This document shows, in pieces, positions 2,265-52,116 of a stretch of DNA of 64,000 bases. The DNA is from Thermocrinis jamiesonii. GTDB taxonomy: Bacteria > Aquificota > Aquificia > Aquificales > Aquificaceae. A program made the position numbers and the translations under genes. Numbering within the stretch: the stretch's first letter is position 1; each line of letters begins with the position of its first letter. The stretch is from NCBI RefSeq assembly GCF_000702425.1, contig NZ_JNIE01000003.1, positions 124,650 to 188,649 on the forward strand. Reading direction: 5' to 3'. Under the pieces are notes generated by a model. It was not told where the DNA came from. It worked only from the letters and a program-made list of their open reading frames with translations, and did no database searches.

Positions 2265-2855
2265 ATGGAAAAGGTAGCGGTATTCATAGATGGCTCTAAT
2301 ATTTTCCACGCCATAAGACAGCTGAACATAAAGATAGACTACACAAAGCTCGTGGACTTTCTAAAAGAGGACAGAAGGCTTATAAGGGCATATTTTTATG
2401 GTGCGGTTCCACAGGAAAAGGACCTAAAAAAGAACACACCCGAGTGGGAAAGCTATCTAAGACAAAAAAGATTCTTAGAGGAACTATCACTGCAAGGCAT
2501 AAAGGTAAAGACTGCAAACCTAAGAAGACTTCCCAGTGGAGAGTTTATAGAGAAGGAGGTGGATATAATGTTGGCTACCGACATGTTAAGCCTTGCGTAT
2601 AAAAATGTATATGACACTGCCATCTTAGTAAGTGGAGACAGCGATTTTTCTTATACAGTGGAAGAAATTCAAAGCTTGGGTAAAAGGGTAGAAAACGCAT
2701 CTTTTAAGAAGACAAGTTCTCATATTCTTAGAAAGGTCTGCGATAGATTTATTCTATTGGATGACTACCTTGATAGGTTTGTGGTGGAGGAAAAACTGCA
2801 GGTAAGTCAGGAGGTTAGCTTTTGGGAAAAGGTGCTCAAACTATGGAAAAGGTAG
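2265..2855 (+). CDS. NYN-domain (LabA/DUF88, PIN-like) putative RNase
   Basis: A 196-residue protein with the NYN domain, a PIN-like metal-dependent nuclease fold. The acidic active-site residues are visible: AVFIDGSNIF at the N-terminus, EKEVDIMLATDML in the middle, and VSGDSDFSYTVEEIQSLGK where the GDSDF aspartates sit. Family members cut RNA, but substrates are known for few of them. The C-terminal 40 residues extend beyond the domain. The gene starts 9 bp after the baeRF stop, and its 3' end overlaps the ribF start by 13 bp, so all four genes are probably one transcript. Placement directly after an eRF1-like gene suggests it may act on mRNA or tRNA at stalled ribosomes; that is inference. 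Confidence 0.8.
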   Translation: MEKVAVFIDGSNIFHAIRQLNIKIDYTKLVDFLKEDRRLIRAYFYGAVPQEKDLKKNTPEWESYLRQKRFLEELSLQGIKVKTANLRRLPSGEFIEKEVDIMLATDMLSLAYKNVYDTAILVSGDSDFSYTVEEIQSLGKRVENASFKKTSSHILRKVCDRFILLDDYLDRFVVEEKLQVSQEVSFWEKVLKLWKR

Positions 2856-3802
2856 TTTCTCTTAACCTAAACTCAAAGTGTTTAAAGGAATTAGACTGCG
2901 TAGATGAGTTGGAAGGTGATTGGGCAATTACGGTGGGCGTTTTTGACGGCGTTCATCTTGGACATAGATATTTAATACAAAAGCTTGTGGATAATGCAAG
3001 AAAGAGAAATCTTAAATCTTGTGTTCTGAGCTTTTATCCACATCCCTCAAAGATCCTATCTCCAAGCCAACAGCCTTGCGAACTAACAGATCCTTTGGAG
3101 AGGGCAGAGAGGATCCTAAGTCTTGGTGTGGATAAAGTGGTTTATATAAACTTTGATAGAGAATTTTCTAAAATAAGGGCAGAGGATTTTCTGAAGGATG
3201 TTATCTACAGAAGGTTAAAGTGTAAATATCTTTTGGTGGGATATGACTGGAGGTTTGGCTACAGAAGGGAGGGAGAAATAGAATTAGCAAAGGAATTTGG
3301 ACAAAAGTTGGGTTTTGAGGTAGAAACCGCAGAACCGTTTTATAAGAACGGGCACCTAATAAGTAGCACCTATATTAGAAGGCTTCTACACAGCGGGAGG
3401 TTAGAAGAAGCTTTTGAATACTTAGGAGAAAGGTATTACATAAGAAGAAAAGTAGTGAAGGGTTCAGGTAGGGGCAGTTTGCTTGGCTATCCCACCGCAA
3501 ACCTTGGAGGAACAGAAAACCTGTGTTTAAAAGAAGGAGTGTATGCGGTTATGGTAGATGATAAATATTTAGGCGTTGCAAACTACGGCTATAGGCCTAC
3601 CTTTGATGGAAGGACAAAGGTGCTTGAGGTTCATCTTTTAGACTTCAAGGGCAACTTAAAGAGCAAAAAAGTAAAAGTGGAGTTTTTGAGTTTTATAAGG
3701 GAGGAGAGAAAGTTTTCCTCAAAAGAAGAGTTAATCAAACAAATAGAAAGGGACATTGCTACCGTGCAAGATAGCTTCCGTAAAGTATTTCCCCGTTTTT
3801 GA
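2843..3802 (+). CDS. ribF: Bifunctional riboflavin kinase / FAD synthetase
   Basis: The protein phosphorylates riboflavin to FMN and adenylates FMN to FAD. The N-terminal FAD synthetase domain shows GVFDGVHLGHRYL, the HxGH-type nucleotidyltransferase motif, with the partner SSTYIRRLLHSG further on. The C-terminal riboflavin kinase domain shows GSGRGSLLGYPTANL. The length, 319 residues, is typical. I chose the ATG at 2843 because AAAGGTG precedes it; an in-frame TTG at 2822 would add seven residues inside the NYN gene. The 3' end overlaps the opposing small gene by 44 bp. There is no functional link to the translation genes upstream beyond co-transcription. Confidence 0.92.
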   Translation: MEKVVSLNLNSKCLKELDCVDELEGDWAITVGVFDGVHLGHRYLIQKLVDNARKRNLKSCVLSFYPHPSKILSPSQQPCELTDPLERAERILSLGVDKVVYINFDREFSKIRAEDFLKDVIYRRLKCKYLLVGYDWRFGYRREGEIELAKEFGQKLGFEVETAEPFYKNGHLISSTYIRRLLHSGRLEEAFEYLGERYYIRRKVVKGSGRGSLLGYPTANLGGTENLCLKEGVYAVMVDDKYLGVANYGYRPTFDGRTKVLEVHLLDFKGNLKSKKVKVEFLSFIREERKFSSKEELIKQIERDIATVQDSFRKVFPRF

Positions 3803-4037
3803 GAAGCACAAAGGACTTTTCCATCTTATCCTTTAGCCCCTTTTTGTTTTCTATAAAGTCATAAAGCGTCTTTGGCTCTCCGTGGGCTTTTAGTAAGTAT
3901 TCTTTTTCTTCTCCGTTGTCAAAGATTATCTTTACAGGCAAGCAGTAAAACTTTGAGTTCTCTCCTTCTGAACATCTATGTATCTCGCCTATAATTTCAA
4001 TAGCCTTGCTTCTGGCAATGATGTCCTCTTGTTTCAT
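3759..4037 (-). CDS. Small hypothetical protein
   Basis: I do not recognise this 92-residue protein. It has an amphipathic N-terminus (MKQEDIIARSKAIEIIGEIH), a beta-rich middle, and a C-terminal beta hairpin (SFVLLKNGEILYG), and reads like a small soluble alpha+beta domain without membrane segments. It follows the GlcF-like gene by 8 bp in the same direction, so it is probably that gene's operon partner. Its last 44 bp overlap the ribF 3' end on the opposite strand. Codon choice matches its neighbours, which supports its being real. Confidence 0.6.
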   Translation of the reverse strand: MKQEDIIARSKAIEIIGEIHRCSEGENSKFYCLPVKIIFDNGEEKEYLLKAHGEPKTLYDFIENKKGLKDKMEKSFVLLKNGEILYGSYLAR

Positions 4038-4045
4038 GCAATAAA

Positions 4046-5236
4046 TTATAATCGCTCCTCAAGGTGTTCTGCCAAGTAATCCGCAAGGTGCATAACCTTT
4101 TGCCCCGTTTTGTAGGTCTTTACACCATCTGTTAAGTTAAGAACACATCCGGGACAGGAGGTCAAAACTACGTCTGCGCCGGTTTTGTTGATATCCTCTA
4201 TCTTTTCTCTTTGAATTTTTTCAGAGAGTTTTGGGTTTGTTATTGAGAAAAGTCCCGCAAAGCCACAGCAGGACTTATCCTTTTCCCCTTTTATCAGCTC
4301 ATCTGATTCTACCCTTTGGATCACACCGTAAAAAACCTTTTCACTCACCTTCATCGCACTGTATGAATGGCAGGGCACGTGAAAGGTAACCTTTTCCCCT
4401 TTTCCTTTGAAATTTAGCCTACTTTCAAAGATTATCTCAGAAAAGTCATAAACCTTTTTGTCTATGCCATAGTCTTCCTGTAGGGCTCCTCCGCATGTGG
4501 GACAGGCTACCACTATGGCATCAAACTCATACTTTCCCATCTCTTTTAGGTTATGTTCTTTAAGCTTTTCAAAAGCAGATATGTTGCCAGAGTAGTAATG
4601 AGGCGCTCCACAGCACTTTATATCCTCCGGCACTATCACGGTCCAACCTGCTTTGTTCATAAGCTTGACCACGCTTTCCCCCGTTTTGGAATAGAAGGCG
4701 TCTATCATACAACCTGTAAAAAACAGTAGTTTTCCTTTTTCCTGCTCAGCCTTGAAGGTTTTACCCCTTAAACCAAAAGCCTTTCCATCGGGCTTTGGCA
4801 TAAACTTGACCGCTCCTGTGGGAAAGAACACTCTAAACTCTTTGTAAGGAAGCTTGTCCATTACTTTCCCCAAAAACTTAACCGCTTTCCTCCCCACATT
4901 GGACTGCAAAACATCCAAGGCTTTAAGTCCAGTTTCTTTGATGAGGGATCTATCCTGTTTGTTTCTGGCACTGACGATGATTTCCTTGTATTCCACGCCG
5001 TTGGGACAGATCCACTCGCACCTTCTACACATGGCACACTGGTCTAAGTGTTTGTAAGCTTCCTTAGTTTCCGATATTTCCCCCTTTAGCAACATCTCAG
5101 CCAACACAAGCCTACCCCTTGCAAACCCACCCTCCTCCTTTATGTATGGATAGGTGGGACAAACGGATTTACACAGAGCGCACTTTACGCACTTTTGAGC
5201 TAAGTCCAAAGAGATCTCTACTTGCTTTTTATACAT
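4046..5236 (-). CDS. GlcF/GlpC-like Fe-S oxidoreductase subunit (CCG domains)
   Basis: An iron-sulfur electron-transfer protein related to the glycolate oxidase GlcF, GlpC and heterodisulfide reductase HdrB-type subunits. The N-terminus carries two 4Fe-4S motifs, CVKCALCKSVCP and CAMCRRCEWICP. Two cysteine-rich CCG domains follow, marked by FTGCMIDA with DIKCCGAPHYYSG, and VPCHSYSA with KSCCGFAGLF; these usually bind a further cluster or form the disulfide-handling site. The length of 396 residues fits GlcF. No FAD-linked partner (GlcD/E) is adjacent, so the substrate is open: glycolate, lactate or another donor are all possible. The small gene at 3759-4037 follows by 8 bp. Confidence 0.75.
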   Translation of the reverse strand: MYKKQVEISLDLAQKCVKCALCKSVCPTYPYIKEEGGFARGRLVLAEMLLKGEISETKEAYKHLDQCAMCRRCEWICPNGVEYKEIIVSARNKQDRSLIKETGLKALDVLQSNVGRKAVKFLGKVMDKLPYKEFRVFFPTGAVKFMPKPDGKAFGLRGKTFKAEQEKGKLLFFTGCMIDAFYSKTGESVVKLMNKAGWTVIVPEDIKCCGAPHYYSGNISAFEKLKEHNLKEMGKYEFDAIVVACPTCGGALQEDYGIDKKVYDFSEIIFESRLNFKGKGEKVTFHVPCHSYSAMKVSEKVFYGVIQRVESDELIKGEKDKSCCGFAGLFSITNPKLSEKIQREKIEDINKTGADVVLTSCPGCVLNLTDGVKTYKTGQKVMHLADYLAEHLEERL

Positions 5237-45222: not shown

Positions 45223-45950
45223 TAAGCGTGCGTATGAGGGCTGAGCTAAAGGGTTTGCACGTTTCTGGAGCGGAAAGGCTTATAGAAGAAGGGTCTTTAA
45301 AGCAAGTGGTCCAAGAGCTTCTTAGAAGGCCAAAAGCTTACGACAAGTTGGTAATTACTGTGGAAAAAGTAGAGAAGGTGTTTCTGATCCCAAAGGCTTT
45401 AACTATATACAGTTATGACTTTAAGTGTGTTGAAGATGCGAGGGCTTTTGCGTTGGAAAAGTTGGAGGAGGTAGGAATAAAGCGGGAGCTTGGGCAGAAG
45501 GCTTTAGAGCTTTTGGACAAAGGACCAAATCCAAGGGGTGGTAATATGAGGGGTGCAGTGCTTATGGACGTGCAAACGGGGGAAAGATTGGAGCCAGACA
45601 AAGAAAGGGGCATAAGAACAGTAAGGGTAGATTGGAAGGACAGAAAAGCCATAAAGCAAGCCCTTTTAAAGAGGGGGATAAAAAGGAAGTATTTAAACAG
45701 GCTTATGGATGCTTTGGCATTGGCTACAAAAAACGTCCATTGTGGTGTTTTGGCAGAACTTTGTTGGAGCGACGACGAAGACTACACTACGGGCTATGTT
45801 GCAAGTAACTTGGGTTACATCAGAATAAATCCACTTAAAGAATTGGGAAAACCAATAGGCGGGAGAGTTTATTTTGTGAAAAGGGAAGACTTGGAAAATC
45901 TGATAGAGTGTTTAGAAAGCAAAGCTGTGCTGATAGAAGCTTTAACTTAA
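45219..45950 (+). CDS. bioW: 6-carboxyhexanoate-CoA ligase (pimeloyl-CoA synthetase)
   Basis: Activates pimelate with CoA and ATP to begin biotin synthesis. The 243-residue protein shows the BioW motifs SVRMRAELKGLHVSGAERLI near the start, PNPRGGNMRGAVLMD and ERGIRTVRVDW in the middle, and TGYVASNLGYIRI near the end. Its presence suggests that the pimelate route is used rather than BioC/BioH. Other bio genes are absent from the window. Its 3' end overlaps the ZnuB-like gene by 9 bp. Confidence 0.92.
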   Translation: MISVRMRAELKGLHVSGAERLIEEGSLKQVVQELLRRPKAYDKLVITVEKVEKVFLIPKALTIYSYDFKCVEDARAFALEKLEEVGIKRELGQKALELLDKGPNPRGGNMRGAVLMDVQTGERLEPDKERGIRTVRVDWKDRKAIKQALLKRGIKRKYLNRLMDALALATKNVHCGVLAELCWSDDEDYTTGYVASNLGYIRINPLKELGKPIGGRVYFVKREDLENLIECLESKAVLIEALT

Positions 45951-46670
45951 CAGGCGAACTAAGAAAACCAGCACACCCAAAAAAGAGTTAAAGAATACCA
46001 CACTAAAGCCAGTGGGAAGGTCAAAAAGAAAGGAAAGAACTATGGCTAAGGTATTAACCGCAGAGCCATATATCCAAGCAAACACAAGACCCTTTCCTAA
46101 GAGCTTGGCGGTAAGGGCAGGAGCAACCAATATGGAAAAGACCACCAACACTCCCACCAGATTTACCGAGCTTGTTACGGTTAAAGCAAACAGGACAAAA
46201 AAGACAAAATCCTTCAAATACCCTTTTAAAAACCTTTCCCTTATGTAGAGCAAAAACCCGATGAACGCATACAAAAGGCCTGTTTTTATTGTTTCTTCTC
46301 TAAAGACAAAAAGAATGTCCCTTGCGGTAAGCTTTAGAAGCTCTTCCATACCGTGGGGAGATTTGGAAAGCAAAAGCACCACCGAAGAAAAGCCCAAAGC
46401 ATACATCAAGCCTATAAAAGCTTCTGAATACTCTTTAAACCTTTGGGACAAAGCAATGAGAATACTTGAAAGCAGTGCAAAGGATAAGGAAAGAAAGTAG
46501 GAGGGTCTGTCAAAGAAAAAAAGGGAGAGGGCAAGCCCCGAAGCAGAAGCCTGCGCTATGGCAATGTCTGTAAAAATTATCCCCCTTCTTACTATCTCAA
46601 GCCCAAAGTAGGCGTGAATGCCCAAAAGAATGAAGGAAAGCAGTAGGGCATTTAAGAGTATGTCTGTCAT
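45942..46670 (-). CDS. znuB: ZnuB-like metal ABC transporter permease
   Basis: A 242-residue membrane protein with 7-8 helices in the ABC-3 (ZnuB/TroC/MntB) family. Typical elements are the N-terminal HAYFGLEIVRRGIIFTDIAI, ALAQASASGL region, and SVNLVGVLVVFSILVAPALTA with the conserved G-x-L-L-V. It overlaps the binding-protein gene by 4 bp. The partner ATPase is missing from the island; the only ABC ATPase in the window, at 62586, is MlaF-type. Confidence 0.85.
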   Translation of the reverse strand: MTDILLNALLLSFILLGIHAYFGLEIVRRGIIFTDIAIAQASASGLALSLFFFDRPSYFLSLSFALLSSILIALSQRFKEYSEAFIGLMYALGFSSVVLLLSKSPHGMEELLKLTARDILFVFREETIKTGLLYAFIGFLLYIRERFLKGYLKDFVFFVLFALTVTSSVNLVGVLVVFSILVAPALTAKLLGKGLVFAWIYGSAVNTLAIVLSFLFDLPTGFSVVFFNSFLGVLVFLVRLLS

Positions 46671-47539
46671 TGGCTGAACCTTTTGAGGATCTCATCAAAC
46701 AAGGAAAATAGATCCTTGGCTTCTGGCACTGCACCTACGTCGTGGGGTAAGATTAGCACTTTGGCATTTAACCTTTTTGCCAAGTATTCTGCAGTCCTCT
46801 TTTCGTGATAGATATCCTGAAGGATAAACTTCACTCCTTGGGCTTGGGCGGTGAGATTTTCTATATGCTTGGTAGTTGGGGGAATGCCCGGAAGTGGTTC
46901 CAAAGTTCCCACCAAAACTATCCCGTATCTACTTAAGAAATAGTTATACAGCTTGTGATAGCTTATAACCTTAGTTCCCCTTAGCTTTGAGAATTCTCTG
47001 TCCCACTCCTTTAACTTTGCGTTCCATCTTCCCAAAAAGTCTTCAAGATTAGCTCTGTAGTAAGAGCAGTTTGGGCTATCCAGCTGACACATTCTTTCTG
47101 CGACAGCCCTTGCCAGAATGGGTATGTTGTGTGGGTCCAAATTGTAATGGGGATTTCCTTCTGGATGCACATCTCCCATCTCTCTGGAAACTCTCTGAGG
47201 TTTCTCTATAAGTTCCACAAACTGGGAAAGGTCCAAAAAGCCTTCTCTACCCGGCTGAATCCTGGGATTGTTGGATTGCTGAAGAAGGGGAGGAAGAAAG
47301 CCTATCTCTATGCTTGCACCTTGGATGATCAAAAGGTTTGCGTCCCTCATTTTAGCAATGTGAGAAGGCTTTGGAACAACAAAGTGAGGGTCATCGGTGC
47401 CTTTTGCGATGATATGAATCTTTACCTTATCTTTTCCTATCTCCTTTACCAGCTCTCCTATCCAGGGATAAGTCGCAACTACTTTTAGCTGGGCTAAACT
47501 AAAACCAACAAGGATCAAAATAAAGAGCATAACTCTCAT
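46667..47539 (-). CDS. znuA: ZnuA-like metal-binding periplasmic protein
   Basis: A 290-residue cluster A-I substrate-binding protein with a signal peptide (MRVMLFILILVGFSLAQ). Metal ligands fit the ZnuA/PsaA type: the H in TDDPHFVVPKPSH, the H in GNPHYNLDPHN, the H in ISYHKLYNYF and an aspartate in LPHDVGAVPEA. The histidine-rich loop of ZnuA is absent and the GNPHYNLDP element is also found in manganese/iron proteins, so zinc is favoured by neighbours, not proved. GGAGG precedes the start by 8 bp and lies inside the terminator T-tract of the upstream porin gene. Confidence 0.85.
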   Translation of the reverse strand: MRVMLFILILVGFSLAQLKVVATYPWIGELVKEIGKDKVKIHIIAKGTDDPHFVVPKPSHIAKMRDANLLIIQGASIEIGFLPPLLQQSNNPRIQPGREGFLDLSQFVELIEKPQRVSREMGDVHPEGNPHYNLDPHNIPILARAVAERMCQLDSPNCSYYRANLEDFLGRWNAKLKEWDREFSKLRGTKVISYHKLYNYFLSRYGIVLVGTLEPLPGIPPTTKHIENLTAQAQGVKFILQDIYHEKRTAEYLAKRLNAKVLILPHDVGAVPEAKDLFSLFDEILKRFSQ

Positions 47540-47583: not shown

Positions 47584-49002
47584 TCAGAAGGGATGGGCAC
47601 CGTGGGCTCCTATGGCAAAGTTAAACTGAAGGATGACCTCATTTACTGTTTTTCTTCTACCTCCTTCGTAGAATGCCCTGTTTTGTCCTGCTTGCAGTCT
47701 TATGCGGGAAAACTCCGTAGGACTAAACTCAAGCATAGCATAGTAAGCGGAAAGGTTCTTTGGCAAATCATTCTTAACCCCATCTTTTTTGACGTCGTTT
47801 TTGTTTATAAGGTTGTACTGAATACCCGCTCTCCACATTTTGTCAAACCTAAAGACAAGCTGAGAATAAAAGCCCCCTTGCTTCTTTTTAACTTCTTCTG
47901 TGGTTAGCGTAGAACCATCGTATTCAAAACCTGTCCCTTTACTGTCTCTGTAGATATACTCCCCTTGGAAGGATATATACCTTATAGAGTCCAGATTATA
48001 CCTTGCGGTAAGGTCAAAGCCATAGAGCTTGGTCTTTCCCGCAAAGGCATGCTCTTCACCTTCGTGTTTATGGTATATTCTGCTGTGTCCAGTGCCATAA
48101 GAAAGTCCGGTTAAGATTGAAAGATTACCAACGTCAAAAGACGTTTTCACAAAACCCACGTATAGGTTTGGTTTCCTTGTTTCCGAGACCTCTACTGTGC
48201 CTATCTTAAAGCCATCCGTTCCAAAGCTCTGTTCGTTCTCTCCTTGGAGGACTTCCGCACCGAGTAGTAAATAGAAAGGTGTAGGCGCAAGCCAGTTTAT
48301 TTGAATGCCTTTTTCTGTAAGTCCGTCATCTCCAAAGAAGACTTTATAGACTAAGGGCTGGGTTGCAAAGTCCCAGGCGTGTGGGTGCTGAGAGTTTAGC
48401 CTTCCAAAGGAGCTTCTAAATTTACCTACTTTTAGTTGAAAACCACCGGGAAGTCCCCTCGTTACCGCATAAGCTTCCTCCACTTCCGCACCGTGCTCGG
48501 AAAAAGGAATAGTGGCGTAAAGGTCAAAGTATGGATCTACCGGTGCATAAAAGAAAAGCTCTGCATAGTTTAGGTTAAAGCCTCTTTTTTCGTTTAGGGC
48601 TCCGTGTCCGTGTTTGTCATGTTCGTGCTTGTGATACAAGCCAGGGATTTTAAGCTCTCCAAGTTCTTTGTCTTTTTTGTTCCTTCCCACAACGGATGTA
48701 TCCACTATCAAGGAGATGTCTGGTAAAAAGGCTGTCTGCCTGAAGGGAGATATTTGAAATGCTTTAAGCCTTTCTTCGTACTTGCTTCTTAGCTGAAGGG
48801 TTCTGTCTGCAGGTATAGGTTTTTCTTCCTTCTTGTCCTCCTGCTTTGCTTCAGGCTTTTGAGCCTTCTCAAGGGCTTCAATTTTTTTCTCAAGTTCCCT
48901 TATGAGCCTTCTTTGTTCTTCAAGCTGACGCTTTAGCTCTTCCAAGTTTTCTTGGGCAAAAGAAAGGCTAAATATAGAAAGCAAAAGCATTGCCTTCTTC
49001 AT
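47584..49002 (-). CDS. Outer-membrane beta-barrel with coiled-coil N-terminus and His-rich loop
   Basis: A 472-residue exported protein. A signal peptide (MKKAMLLLSIFSLSFAQ) leads into a charged coiled coil (about 18-60) and then a long series of amphipathic strands ending in ...NFAIGAHGAHPF, a terminal phenylalanine as expected for BAM-inserted barrels. The segment at about residues 122-134 has seven histidines (HKHEHDKHGHG), and another, HKHEGEEH, occurs later. These suggest a metal-collecting surface loop. It sits in a metal-uptake island, so a zinc-permeable or zinc-binding porin is likely. No TonB box is visible, so it is probably a passive barrel. Confidence 0.75.
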   Translation of the reverse strand: MKKAMLLLSIFSLSFAQENLEELKRQLEEQRRLIRELEKKIEALEKAQKPEAKQEDKKEEKPIPADRTLQLRSKYEERLKAFQISPFRQTAFLPDISLIVDTSVVGRNKKDKELGELKIPGLYHKHEHDKHGHGALNEKRGFNLNYAELFFYAPVDPYFDLYATIPFSEHGAEVEEAYAVTRGLPGGFQLKVGKFRSSFGRLNSQHPHAWDFATQPLVYKVFFGDDGLTEKGIQINWLAPTPFYLLLGAEVLQGENEQSFGTDGFKIGTVEVSETRKPNLYVGFVKTSFDVGNLSILTGLSYGTGHSRIYHKHEGEEHAFAGKTKLYGFDLTARYNLDSIRYISFQGEYIYRDSKGTGFEYDGSTLTTEEVKKKQGGFYSQLVFRFDKMWRAGIQYNLINKNDVKKDGVKNDLPKNLSAYYAMLEFSPTEFSRIRLQAGQNRAFYEGGRRKTVNEVILQFNFAIGAHGAHPF

Positions 49003-49015
49003 AGCACTACCTCCT

Positions 49016-49252
49016 TTAAAGTGTTATTACTTGTTCTACGCCCAATTGCTTGGCTTTCCCATAAAGCATGGGAAAACATCCAATGACCGCACCTTCTACC
49101 AGCTTGTCTGCAATGTTTCTCTCATAACAACACTGGTCGCAACCCATCAAAAAGCCAACCTTTCCGTCCTTTAAAAGCTTAGAAAGTCTTTCTCCTATTG
49201 GATTGCCTTTAACCAGCACGTAGGTGTTATCCTGAAAAAAGAACATACCCAT
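49016..49252 (-). CDS. DsrE-like mini-protein with CxxCC
   Basis: A 78-residue protein resembling the second half of a DsrE/DsrF-like fold: KDGKVGFLMGCDQCCYERNI then VEGAVIGCFPMLYGKAKQLG and a final strand. In the family a cysteine at this place carries sulfur or takes part in redox. Here C-x-x-C-C is present. The N-terminal half of a standard DsrE domain is shortened. It follows the His-rich gene by 52 bp and precedes the barrel by 13 bp. A thiol-based or metal-handling role is inferred only from context. Confidence 0.6.
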   Translation of the reverse strand: MGMFFFQDNTYVLVKGNPIGERLSKLLKDGKVGFLMGCDQCCYERNIADKLVEGAVIGCFPMLYGKAKQLGVEQVITL

Positions 49253-49304: not shown

Positions 49305-49571
49305 TTATTCCGTTGGTGGTGCTCTGGTTAGTGTGTGCTTTTTATATGAGGACGAGGGCAAAACTTGCGGTGCTTTTGGGTTTTCTAAGGAAATTGTGGG
49401 GAAATGGAAAGTTAATTCTAAATTTACGTCATTTGTGTGCTGTGGCTGATGCTGGACTATACAGAGCTCACAATCGTGATGGTATTGAAGGTCTTCGTGA
49501 TGATGCTCTGAAGCCTTGAAATCCAAAACTAAAAGAAGAAGGATCAAGATAAAGTGCGTTAAGAGTTTCAT
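49305..49571 (-). CDS. Small His-rich exported peptide
   Basis: An 88-residue ORF with a strong signal peptide (MKLLTHFILILLLLVLDFKA) followed by a short region with the motif EHHHEDLQYHHDCELCIVQH: six histidines, two cysteines and acidic residues within 20 positions. The remaining 40 residues are Pro/Thr/Ser-rich without clear fold. This looks like an exported metal-binding peptide, perhaps capturing Zn(II) or Cu. The start overlaps the COG0523 stop (ATGA), supporting real coupled translation. I know no clear family. Confidence 0.65.
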   Translation of the reverse strand: MKLLTHFILILLLLVLDFKASEHHHEDLQYHHDCELCIVQHQPQHTNDVNLELTFHFPTISLENPKAPQVLPSSSYKKHTLTRAPPTE

Positions 49572-50836
49572 ATCTTTGTATTATTATAGCAAGATAGCAC
49601 AAAACTTTCCTTTTCTGGAGTGTCTAACCTTAATGAAAGATAAGCCTTTGGAAGCAAGTAATGACTGCTTAGATGATAGACCCTTTTATGCTTGGGCAGT
49701 TTGCTGAGTATGTAGCTAACCACACCGCTTGGCACTTTCCAAAACAAGATCTTGTCTTTTTCCGAGTTTATACATACTTTTAGCAAATCATTCACTTCGC
49801 TGAAGTTTTTAAACCTTTTTTCTTCAATAAACAGAAAATCCCCCTCTTCCAAATCATTTAGCAGTCTTTCTGCGGTATCCAGCTCATCCATAGCTATACC
49901 TTCAATGTATGCAATACCTTCCCTTGCATCAAACTCTTCTATCGGAAAGCACACCTTTTCGTGCTCAATACCTAAATCCCCACCTTTTGGAAACTCTTCA
50001 AAGATTTTTTTGTTCAGGTTTTGTCCTATAAAAACCAAAAATGGCTTTTGCTCTGTTTCTAATCTTTCCCAACTGATATAACCAAAGCTGTAGTTTAAAC
50101 CAAGGGGCAATGGACTCTCAAGGCAATTGACTACTCCCTTTACTCGGTATACGCCCTTTGGAAGGTTTAGCAAAAAACTTTCAAGTTCCTGTTTTGAATA
50201 ATAACCATCAAGGTGTAAAGTAATGCTATCAAAGACTGAGTGGTGTCCTTTCAAAGCAGGGGGTGTTTTCAAAGTCCCAAAAAGCTTATGGATGTCCTCA
50301 TCTACAAAACCTTCTTTTGCCAAAAAGAGAGGCTTTTGATAAGAGTGAAAAAATTCTAACTTTTCTCTCAGCTGGGCATTGCTTAAAAGGTCTGCCTTTG
50401 TTAGGACTAAGCAGTGGGCTGAATCTATCTGAGATTGGACCAAAGCTGTTTTTAAGACATCATCCTCCATATCTAAGCCAAAAACGCCAATGATGAGTTC
50501 TACAACATAACCAGAAGTTTCCAAACTGTAATAAATAGGAGATGGGTCCGAAAGGCCAGAGGTTTCCACTATGAGAAATTCAGGCTCTTTTCTCTTTATT
50601 TGGGCTAATGCACTTAAGAGTTCTCCTCCAAGCTCACAGCAAAAGCACCCTCCCTCAACCCCATATACCTCCATACTTTCCTGATACAACCTTATTTTGT
50701 CGTAATTTACCTTTCCAAAGTCATTAACCAGTATAGCTATCCTTTTTTCTTTAAACTTCGGAAGCAGAGACCTTATTATGAAGGTAGTTTTTCCACTCCC
50801 TAAAAAGCCTCCAACTATTAAGGCTGGTATTCTCAT
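49568..50836 (-). CDS. COG0523 (CobW/ZigA-type) metal GTPase
   Basis: A G3E-family GTPase of 422 residues. Walker A is GGFLGSGKTTFI, the metal site is VEGGCFCCELGGEL (C-x-C-C), then ETSGLSDPSPI and a TKAD base-specificity motif. The C-terminal CobW_C-like domain (about 200-420) is long and divergent. COG0523 proteins deliver zinc or other metals to client proteins, often under zinc limitation. It lies between the propeller (1-bp overlap, TAATG) and the His-rich peptide (4-bp overlap). Confidence 0.88.
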   Translation of the reverse strand: MRIPALIVGGFLGSGKTTFIIRSLLPKFKEKRIAILVNDFGKVNYDKIRLYQESMEVYGVEGGCFCCELGGELLSALAQIKRKEPEFLIVETSGLSDPSPIYYSLETSGYVVELIIGVFGLDMEDDVLKTALVQSQIDSAHCLVLTKADLLSNAQLREKLEFFHSYQKPLFLAKEGFVDEDIHKLFGTLKTPPALKGHHSVFDSITLHLDGYYSKQELESFLLNLPKGVYRVKGVVNCLESPLPLGLNYSFGYISWERLETEQKPFLVFIGQNLNKKIFEEFPKGGDLGIEHEKVCFPIEEFDAREGIAYIEGIAMDELDTAERLLNDLEEGDFLFIEEKRFKNFSEVNDLLKVCINSEKDKILFWKVPSGVVSYILSKLPKHKRVYHLSSHYLLPKAYLSLRLDTPEKESFVLSCYNNTKI

Positions 50837-52116
50837 TAAACTAGATAAGGATTTACTACCCTTTCAAACACTCCGTAAAAGTGCTTAACCAGTTGTCCCT
50901 GAGCCTGCCCAGACTCTGCGGTAAGGATCCTTTTTATCACCTCAAACTTTTGCGCATCTATCACAAATACCGAGTCCGCCACCCTGTTGCTAACGTAAAA
51001 CTTCTTCCCATCTTCCGAAAATACCACGTGTCCCATGTGTCTGCCCACACCCACGTCTATGACCTTTATCCTCTCAAAATTCTTCAGGCTTATTATTTCA
51101 ACTTTCGTATCTCCGTATTGGGTTATAACCGCATACTCTCCGTTTGGGGATATATAAGCATGTCCTACTCCCTTAACCGCAGAGTCTATGACCTTTACCA
51201 AATCACCGTTTGCATTATAAACCCTAATCGTTGTTCCTTCAAAGGGAGACGCTCCTCTGTTGCAAACCATAAAGTGTTTTCCGTCGTTGGTAAAGTTCCC
51301 GTGATGACCCTCTATCCTTGCAGGGTTTGCCGACTCCTCTGCGCTTAATTCCACACTTAAAGTTTTCAAAAGCTTTGGCTTTGAGGCATCAGATATATCA
51401 TAAACATAAACTATGGGAGTAGATTTTGTAGATTTTGGCTCGTTATACTCTACAGTAACCCACACGGTGTTTTTGTTAAAGTCAAAGTAATGGGGATTGC
51501 CAGACACATCCACATGGGCAACTACGGAAAAGTCCTTCGTGGATATGATAAAGAACCTGTTGTCTGAGTAACTTCCTACGAAGTAATACCTGCCATCTGG
51601 GCTAAAGGTCCCGTGCATACTAAAATCTCCTTTGTGTCCTGTGTTTAATACAGGCAGTTCCACGATCTTTACAATCTCAAGGTCTTTTGGAGATATAAAA
51701 GCAACACGATTTTTACCGTTATCAATGCCAGAATGATTCACCGCTACCAATCTTCCATCAGGAGAGACCACAGGATGCTTAGGCCTTGAACCAGTTTCAA
51801 TGTCTTTAACCTTCCTTAGATTGACAGTGTCTATCACGCTTACGGTCCTTTGGTCTGGTGCGTTGTTTGCGACAAAGAGATACCTGCCGTTTTTACTAAC
51901 CGAACCCAGCGTCCCACCCTTCCCACCAGTGGATATTCTTGCTATTACTTCGTCCTTTTTAGTATCAATGGCTACCACAAAACCGTCCCCCCTAAGGGCA
52001 AAGAGAGGTGTTTCCATTGGCTTTTCAGCACCTGCAAAAGAAAAGCTCTTATAAAGGGTAGCATAAGCGACACCAAAGCCCGCAAGTTTTAAAAGTTCCC
52101 TTCTGCTCGTTTTCAT
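50836..52116 (-). CDS. Tat-exported YncE-like beta-propeller with a histidine ring
   Basis: A 426-residue protein. The N-terminus MKTSRRELLKLAGFGVAYA is a twin-arginine signal (S-R-R-x-L-L-K). The rest is a seven-bladed YncE-type propeller with blade motifs of the form S-P-D-G. In six of seven blades a histidine stands three residues before that motif: H114, H168, H209, H272, H319 and H363 (numbered from this start); the first blade has leucine. Such a ring could bind metal at the propeller mouth. I chose the ATG at 52116, preceded by GGAGG at 8 bp; an ATG at 52131 would break the Tat layout. It heads the metal island. AztD is a known periplasmic propeller-type zinc chaperone, but homology to it is not evident. 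Confidence 0.8.
   Translation of the reverse strand: MKTSRRELLKLAGFGVAYATLYKSFSFAGAEKPMETPLFALRGDGFVVAIDTKKDEVIARISTGGKGGTLGSVSKNGRYLFVANNAPDQRTVSVIDTVNLRKVKDIETGSRPKHPVVSPDGRLVAVNHSGIDNGKNRVAFISPKDLEIVKIVELPVLNTGHKGDFSMHGTFSPDGRYYFVGSYSDNRFFIISTKDFSVVAHVDVSGNPHYFDFNKNTVWVTVEYNEPKSTKSTPIVYVYDISDASKPKLLKTLSVELSAEESANPARIEGHHGNFTNDGKHFMVCNRGASPFEGTTIRVYNANGDLVKVIDSAVKGVGHAYISPNGEYAVITQYGDTKVEIISLKNFERIKVIDVGVGRHMGHVVFSEDGKKFYVSNRVADSVFVIDAQKFEVIKRILTAESGQAQGQLVKHFYGVFERVVNPYLV

Follow-up and report, generated by a model that had tools for sequence, protein, structure and literature searches.

The 64,000-nucleotide stretch of Thermocrinis jamiesonii DNA analysed here (the window) encodes, at 50836–52116 on the reverse strand, a Tat-type exported eight-bladed β-propeller with six predicted channel histidines and four further invariant histidines. 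Newly described here is the combination of an invariant twin-arginine signal in this protein with a directly adjacent COG0523 GTPase gene, found at all eight orthologous loci. We infer that the propeller is a periplasmic AztD-like metalloprotein that would be loaded by the GTPase in the cytoplasm and then exported, already folded, by Tat; on this reading as a whole our judgement is evenly divided. One part of it, binding of metal by the channel histidines, appears very likely to us. The system is assembled from known elements and is not unprecedented, and the constant pairing of propeller and GTPase suggests a little-studied route of metal loading before export.

Six histidines in one register of an eight-bladed propeller

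The propeller ORF starts with ATG and specifies a product of 426 amino acids, in whose translation H114, H168, H209, H272, H319, and H363 are all found at the positions given in the preliminary description. Each was said to stand three residues before an S/T-x-D/N-G turn; the association with a turn holds, but three residues intervene, so the S/T-x-D/N-G-like turn begins four residues after the histidine, and the turn of blade 4 is degenerate (FNKN). Of 13 histidines in the protein, six thus share one register. When the mature sequence was shuffled 20,000 times, the best shared register held at most four histidines, and six were reached in 0 of 20,000 trials. Because shuffled sequences never exceeded four histidines per register, we regard the six-histidine pattern as real, and it is well past chance expectation. 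A generic propeller artefact was also rejected: when 31 further propeller ORFs were aligned with the profile of the family, they did not show the six histidines, and the best of them has three.

AlphaFold2 gave a propeller model with a pLDDT of 80 and a pTM of 0.82 from a three-sequence input, and a second run headed by the Caldimicrobium orthologue gave values of 78 and 0.80. Strand lists from the models of these two orthologues contain eight four-stranded blades, the last of which is completed by one strand from the C-terminus joined to three from the N-terminus, which closes the propeller, and both models thereby rule out the seven blades originally counted. The six histidines are placed on the innermost strands of blades 2–7, and the turn that follows each of them is the hairpin between the two innermost strands. 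At the histidine place, L70/G71 stand in blade 1, and an invariant QAQGQ is found in blade 8. Since six consecutive blades of eight carry the histidines, they would describe a 225-degree horseshoe and not the ring that had been envisaged. That the side chains face the channel, and at what distances from one another, is suggested by their common register and by the comparison with AztD described below.

Orthologues come from seven Aquificaceae genomes of two genera (including that of the window), from a contig of a Caldimicrobium metagenome-assembled genome (MAG; L031), and from a further genome of the same phylum as that MAG (G265); one Aquificaceae sequence lying on a contig fragment (G081) was left out. 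The resulting set of eight full-length orthologues spans the Aquificaceae and the Thermodesulfobacteriota. Contamination as the source of the gene pair outside the Aquificaceae was dismissed, as in G265 the pair sits within a 1.8 Mb contig. One MAG record titled Acidobacteria bacterium J001 (L032) carries a contig whose coordinates coincide with those in G079; it was placed in the Aquificaceae, and its title looks wrong.

Several features of the alignment bear on where the function of the propeller may lie. First, 10 of the 13 histidines in the window protein are invariant in all eight orthologues: H128, H161, H271, H360, and the six of the pattern, which thus pass the alignment check that the preliminary description had set as a possible refutation. 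Second, the innermost strands (strand A) are the most conserved element, with 38 of 49 residues invariant, and the outermost (strand D) are the least conserved, with 8 of 53. Third, the loops at the face where the innermost strands begin (the top) have 50 of 101 residues invariant, compared with 12 of 71 at the opposite (bottom) face. Judged from this conservation, the working part of the propeller appears to be the channel together with the top face. Finally, mean identity between genera is 64% for the propeller and 41% for the GTPase, with the propeller higher in 28 of 28 pairwise comparisons, which agrees with the propeller being the probable functional core, whether as an enzyme or as a demanding metal site.

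The best non-orthologous sequence found, a Candidatus Manganitrophus propeller (L086, 3962–5176), carries the first three horseshoe histidines but not the last three, has no adjoining COG0523 gene, and shows 26% identity. On this plasmid, the three-channel-histidine propeller and a porin form a pair (2691–5176) close to cobalamin genes. An anti-phage role for the window propeller was set aside, as PADLOC returned no match.

Structural matches over residues 30–420 include eight-bladed cd1 nitrite reductase, NirF, NirN, Rsa4, and designed propellers, with Z scores of ~30–34; AztD is absent among the matches listed, which we counted neither way. Cd1 nitrite reductase, NirF, and NirN are among the best full-length matches (Z 32–34), and the Pfam family Cytochrom_D1 also matches (E 8e-17), which favours a reading in which the histidines bind a tetrapyrrole or another organic ligand, as in those propellers, instead of bare metal. 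Similar Z scores are reached, however, by unrelated eight-bladed WD40 and designed propellers, the partner protein is a metal GTPase, and to our knowledge a six-histidine horseshoe is no feature of heme d1 sites. We therefore consider tetrapyrrole binding very improbable.

A dedicated GTPase and Tat export

The gene directly downstream of the propeller (49568–50836, reverse strand) overlaps the propeller stop codon and encodes a COG0523/CobW-type G3E GTPase of 422 amino acids, with a GFLGSGKT Walker A sequence, a GCFCC metal motif, and domain matches to PF02492 (E 1e-32) and PF07683 (E 6e-10). A COG0523 GTPase of ~416–452 residues occupies the same place in 8 of 8 loci, and the CxCC and Walker A motifs are present in every one. 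In a comparison of twelve genomes, the seven with the propeller all have this subtype of GTPase, and the five without the propeller lack it.

The twin-arginine (S/T)RR motif, which begins at residues 3–7, is invariant in the eight propeller orthologues, in accord with the Tat signal recognised earlier; no such motif was evident among the AztD sequences examined. The Tat pathway exports folded proteins; the propeller could therefore take up its metal while still in the cytoplasm, the compartment in which the GTPase acts. In the mechanism we propose, the channel of the eight-bladed propeller would bind a single metal ion or two of them, with zinc the likeliest metal. H114, H168, and H209 would form one site, an AztD-like triad, and a second triad, H272, H319, and H363, would occupy the other half of the horseshoe. 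The dedicated GTPase would deliver or check the metal in the cytoplasm, after which Tat would export the folded, metal-loaded propeller; within this genus, the propeller may work beside the ZnuA/ZnuB zinc-uptake cassette. That these proteins constitute a Tat-exported family with a doubled His3 site, filled by its own COG0523 GTPase, and possibly a new periplasmic metalloenzyme, is a tentative proposal to which we give less than even odds.

COG0523 proteins are not limited to zinc, and gene context makes zinc the likely metal here. For few COG0523 GTPases do we know of an established target protein, and the propeller, if our reading is true, would be a defined client for an orphan member. Adjacency of the two genes at all eight loci, their co-occurrence, and the candidate metal site make client metallation directly testable in a two-gene system. 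Clustering of COG0523 subfamily 5 with WD40-repeat genes and znuABC was reported in 2009 (PMC2770081), and the likeness lies in the zinc-related setting of a propeller gene with a COG0523 gene beside it. The passages of that report on these clusters describe no histidine-lined, Tat-exported propeller, and the window GTPase is likened to subfamily 5 by its gene context.

Comparison with AztD and with propeller metalloenzymes

AztD, a precedent cited in the preliminary description, is an eight-bladed periplasmic zinc metallochaperone whose channel site (site 1) in the Pd protein is formed by H124, H167, and H218, whose second site, a hairpin with H99, H102, and D104 plus the C-terminal H408, donates zinc to AztC, and which has a C214–C231 disulfide (PMC6689063). 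Solved AztD structures are PDB 6cmk, 6n01, and 6ck1; our comparison used AztD sequences from plasmid records and the AztD model NF038015. Profile–profile alignment with hhalign made the window family collinear with AztD over its whole length, at a probability of 94–97%, and paired RPKH114 with RPGH and MH168G with HHG of AztD, which contain channel zinc ligands. H209 lies on the next blade, in the register of the third AztD ligand, although hhalign displaces it by about nine residues. The precedent thus gains an alignment of H114 and H168 with AztD channel ligands, with H209 near the third ligand by blade order, and the earlier idea of an exported propeller with a probable, predicted metal site in its channel is supported.

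The window propeller also resembles AztD as an exported eight-bladed protein with channel histidines on consecutive blades, often encoded near ZnuA/AztC and COG0523 GTPases; AztD genes have COG0523 neighbours both in plasmid records and in the published account (PMC6689063). It differs in having three more channel histidines and a twin-arginine signal and in lacking site 2 and the disulfide, and AztD is less conserved than the window family. Neither an HGxHxD hairpin nor a C-terminal histidine was present in seven orthologues, and Cys285 is the only cysteine of the window protein. A true AztD scores 423 bits on NF038015 (cut-off 400 bits), with which the window propeller gave no match at E ≤ 0.1; the model also had no match in 136 Aquificota genomes. 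The missing transfer site, disulfide, and family score exclude the propeller from AztD proper and make it AztD-like but not AztD; we retain AztD as a mode of action. It is the closest functional match, by virtue of resemblance in the probable channel site. If this is so, zinc handling of the AztD kind would extend to deep-branching thermophiles, by a different export route.

A parallel with nitrous oxide reductase (NosZ) had also been drawn, and like NosZ the window protein is a propeller with several histidines and proposed or known metal binding in the channel. It scored 66 bits against lactonase-type (clade III) NosZ (NF052460, cut-off 700) and 18 bits against Sec-type NosZ (cut-off 625). 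NosZ carries a CuA cupredoxin domain with two cysteines; a domain search of the window propeller found no extra domain, and with its one cysteine there can be no CuA site. The window protein is, moreover, eight-bladed, and no nos maturation genes were noticed next door. Scores far below the cut-offs and the absent CuA domain rule out identity as NosZ, and the parallel lapses. Thiocyanate dehydrogenase, another exported propeller metalloenzyme, with a trinuclear copper site, matched (PDB 5f75, 6sji, and 8q9x; E ~0.002–0.01) over residues 73–150, which cover two blades; full-length homology was not found, and its partner genes differ from those in the window.

These comparisons bear on whether the propeller is itself a metalloenzyme that uses copper or some other redox-active metal, bound by several histidines in its active site as in nitrous oxide reductase and thiocyanate dehydrogenase. 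An enzyme would agree with the very strong conservation along the channel and on the top face, with the lead of the propeller over the GTPase in identity, and with weak PDB profile matches to thiocyanate dehydrogenase and to the beta subunit of hydrazine synthase. It would also agree with the twin-arginine signal, since Tat is a typical export route for enzymes with cofactors. Yet the matches span generic blades only and fall far under family cut-offs, the partner is a COG0523 GTPase and not a copper-delivery protein, the CuA cysteines are lacking, and no cytochrome directly adjoins the propeller in the loci read. On balance, we think a redox enzyme of this type distinctly unlikely.

The zinc cassette of the window

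In the window, the propeller–GTPase pair heads and overlaps a cassette of five genes, all on the reverse strand. The first (49305–49571), whose start overlaps the GTPase stop, encodes a small histidine-rich protein of 88 amino acids with an N-terminal hydrophobic stretch (HHHED...HHDCELC), and the same gene is the first of the zinc cassette in relatives without the propeller. A SaoD/DsrE-family gene follows (49016–49252); its product is N-terminally shortened (78 amino acids versus 115 in relatives), with no recognisable trace of the missing part in any of the upstream frames, and the gene may therefore be degraded. Next comes a gene, conserved in the cassette, for a 472-residue protein with histidine-rich stretches (47584–49002), to which a domain search assigned no family and which is probably an outer-membrane porin-like protein. 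A ZnuA/AztC-type metal ABC transporter substrate-binding protein (46667–47539) and a ZnuB/AztB-type ABC-3 permease (45942–46670) complete the cassette. No ATPase gene adjoins this ZnuA/ZnuB pair (45942–47539), and the genome has another ZnuA-family gene, distinct from this one, at a separate location.

Association of the pair with the cassette is not constant. In one genome (G002) the pair is convergent to the cassette, which in others (for example, G003, G016, and G023) is present without the propeller. Beyond the propeller–GTPase pair, neighbourhoods vary between genera, and at 6 of the 8 loci the stretches read show no zinc-uptake genes, ZnuA included, close to the propeller. The regions preceding the propeller and zinc cassettes gave no common Zur-like palindrome, and no RNA element in the operon reached the gathering score.

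The neighbourhood bears on the possibility that the propeller is a periplasmic zinc chaperone or store exactly like AztD, which would pass zinc to the adjoining ZnuA, the GTPase being a separate cytoplasmic protein of zinc limitation. Fold class and collinear channel histidines are shared with AztD, AztC is the nearest NCBIfam model for the window ZnuA (94 bits), and a Thermus brockianus plasmid unites a substrate-binding protein, an AztD-like propeller, SaoD/DsrE, and a COG0523 GTPase, a parts list that resembles that of the window. Set against this, site 2 of AztD, which donates zinc to AztC (PMC6689063), has no counterpart in the window family, ZnuA is not close to the propeller in those six loci, and AztD is less conserved and without a twin-arginine signal. 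We regard a strictly AztD-like role as somewhat unlikely, and prefer a GTPase-loaded, Tat-exported metalloprotein.

On two Thermus plasmids (L066 and L070), genes for a metal substrate-binding protein, an AztD-like propeller, and SaoD/DsrE are clustered, and the propellers are annotated as hypothetical. Near the zinc cassette in genus g11 (L060 and L062), several proteins of 180 residues that resemble one another (TKLTAEEFFKLYPEESRVELI...) are encoded in arrays.
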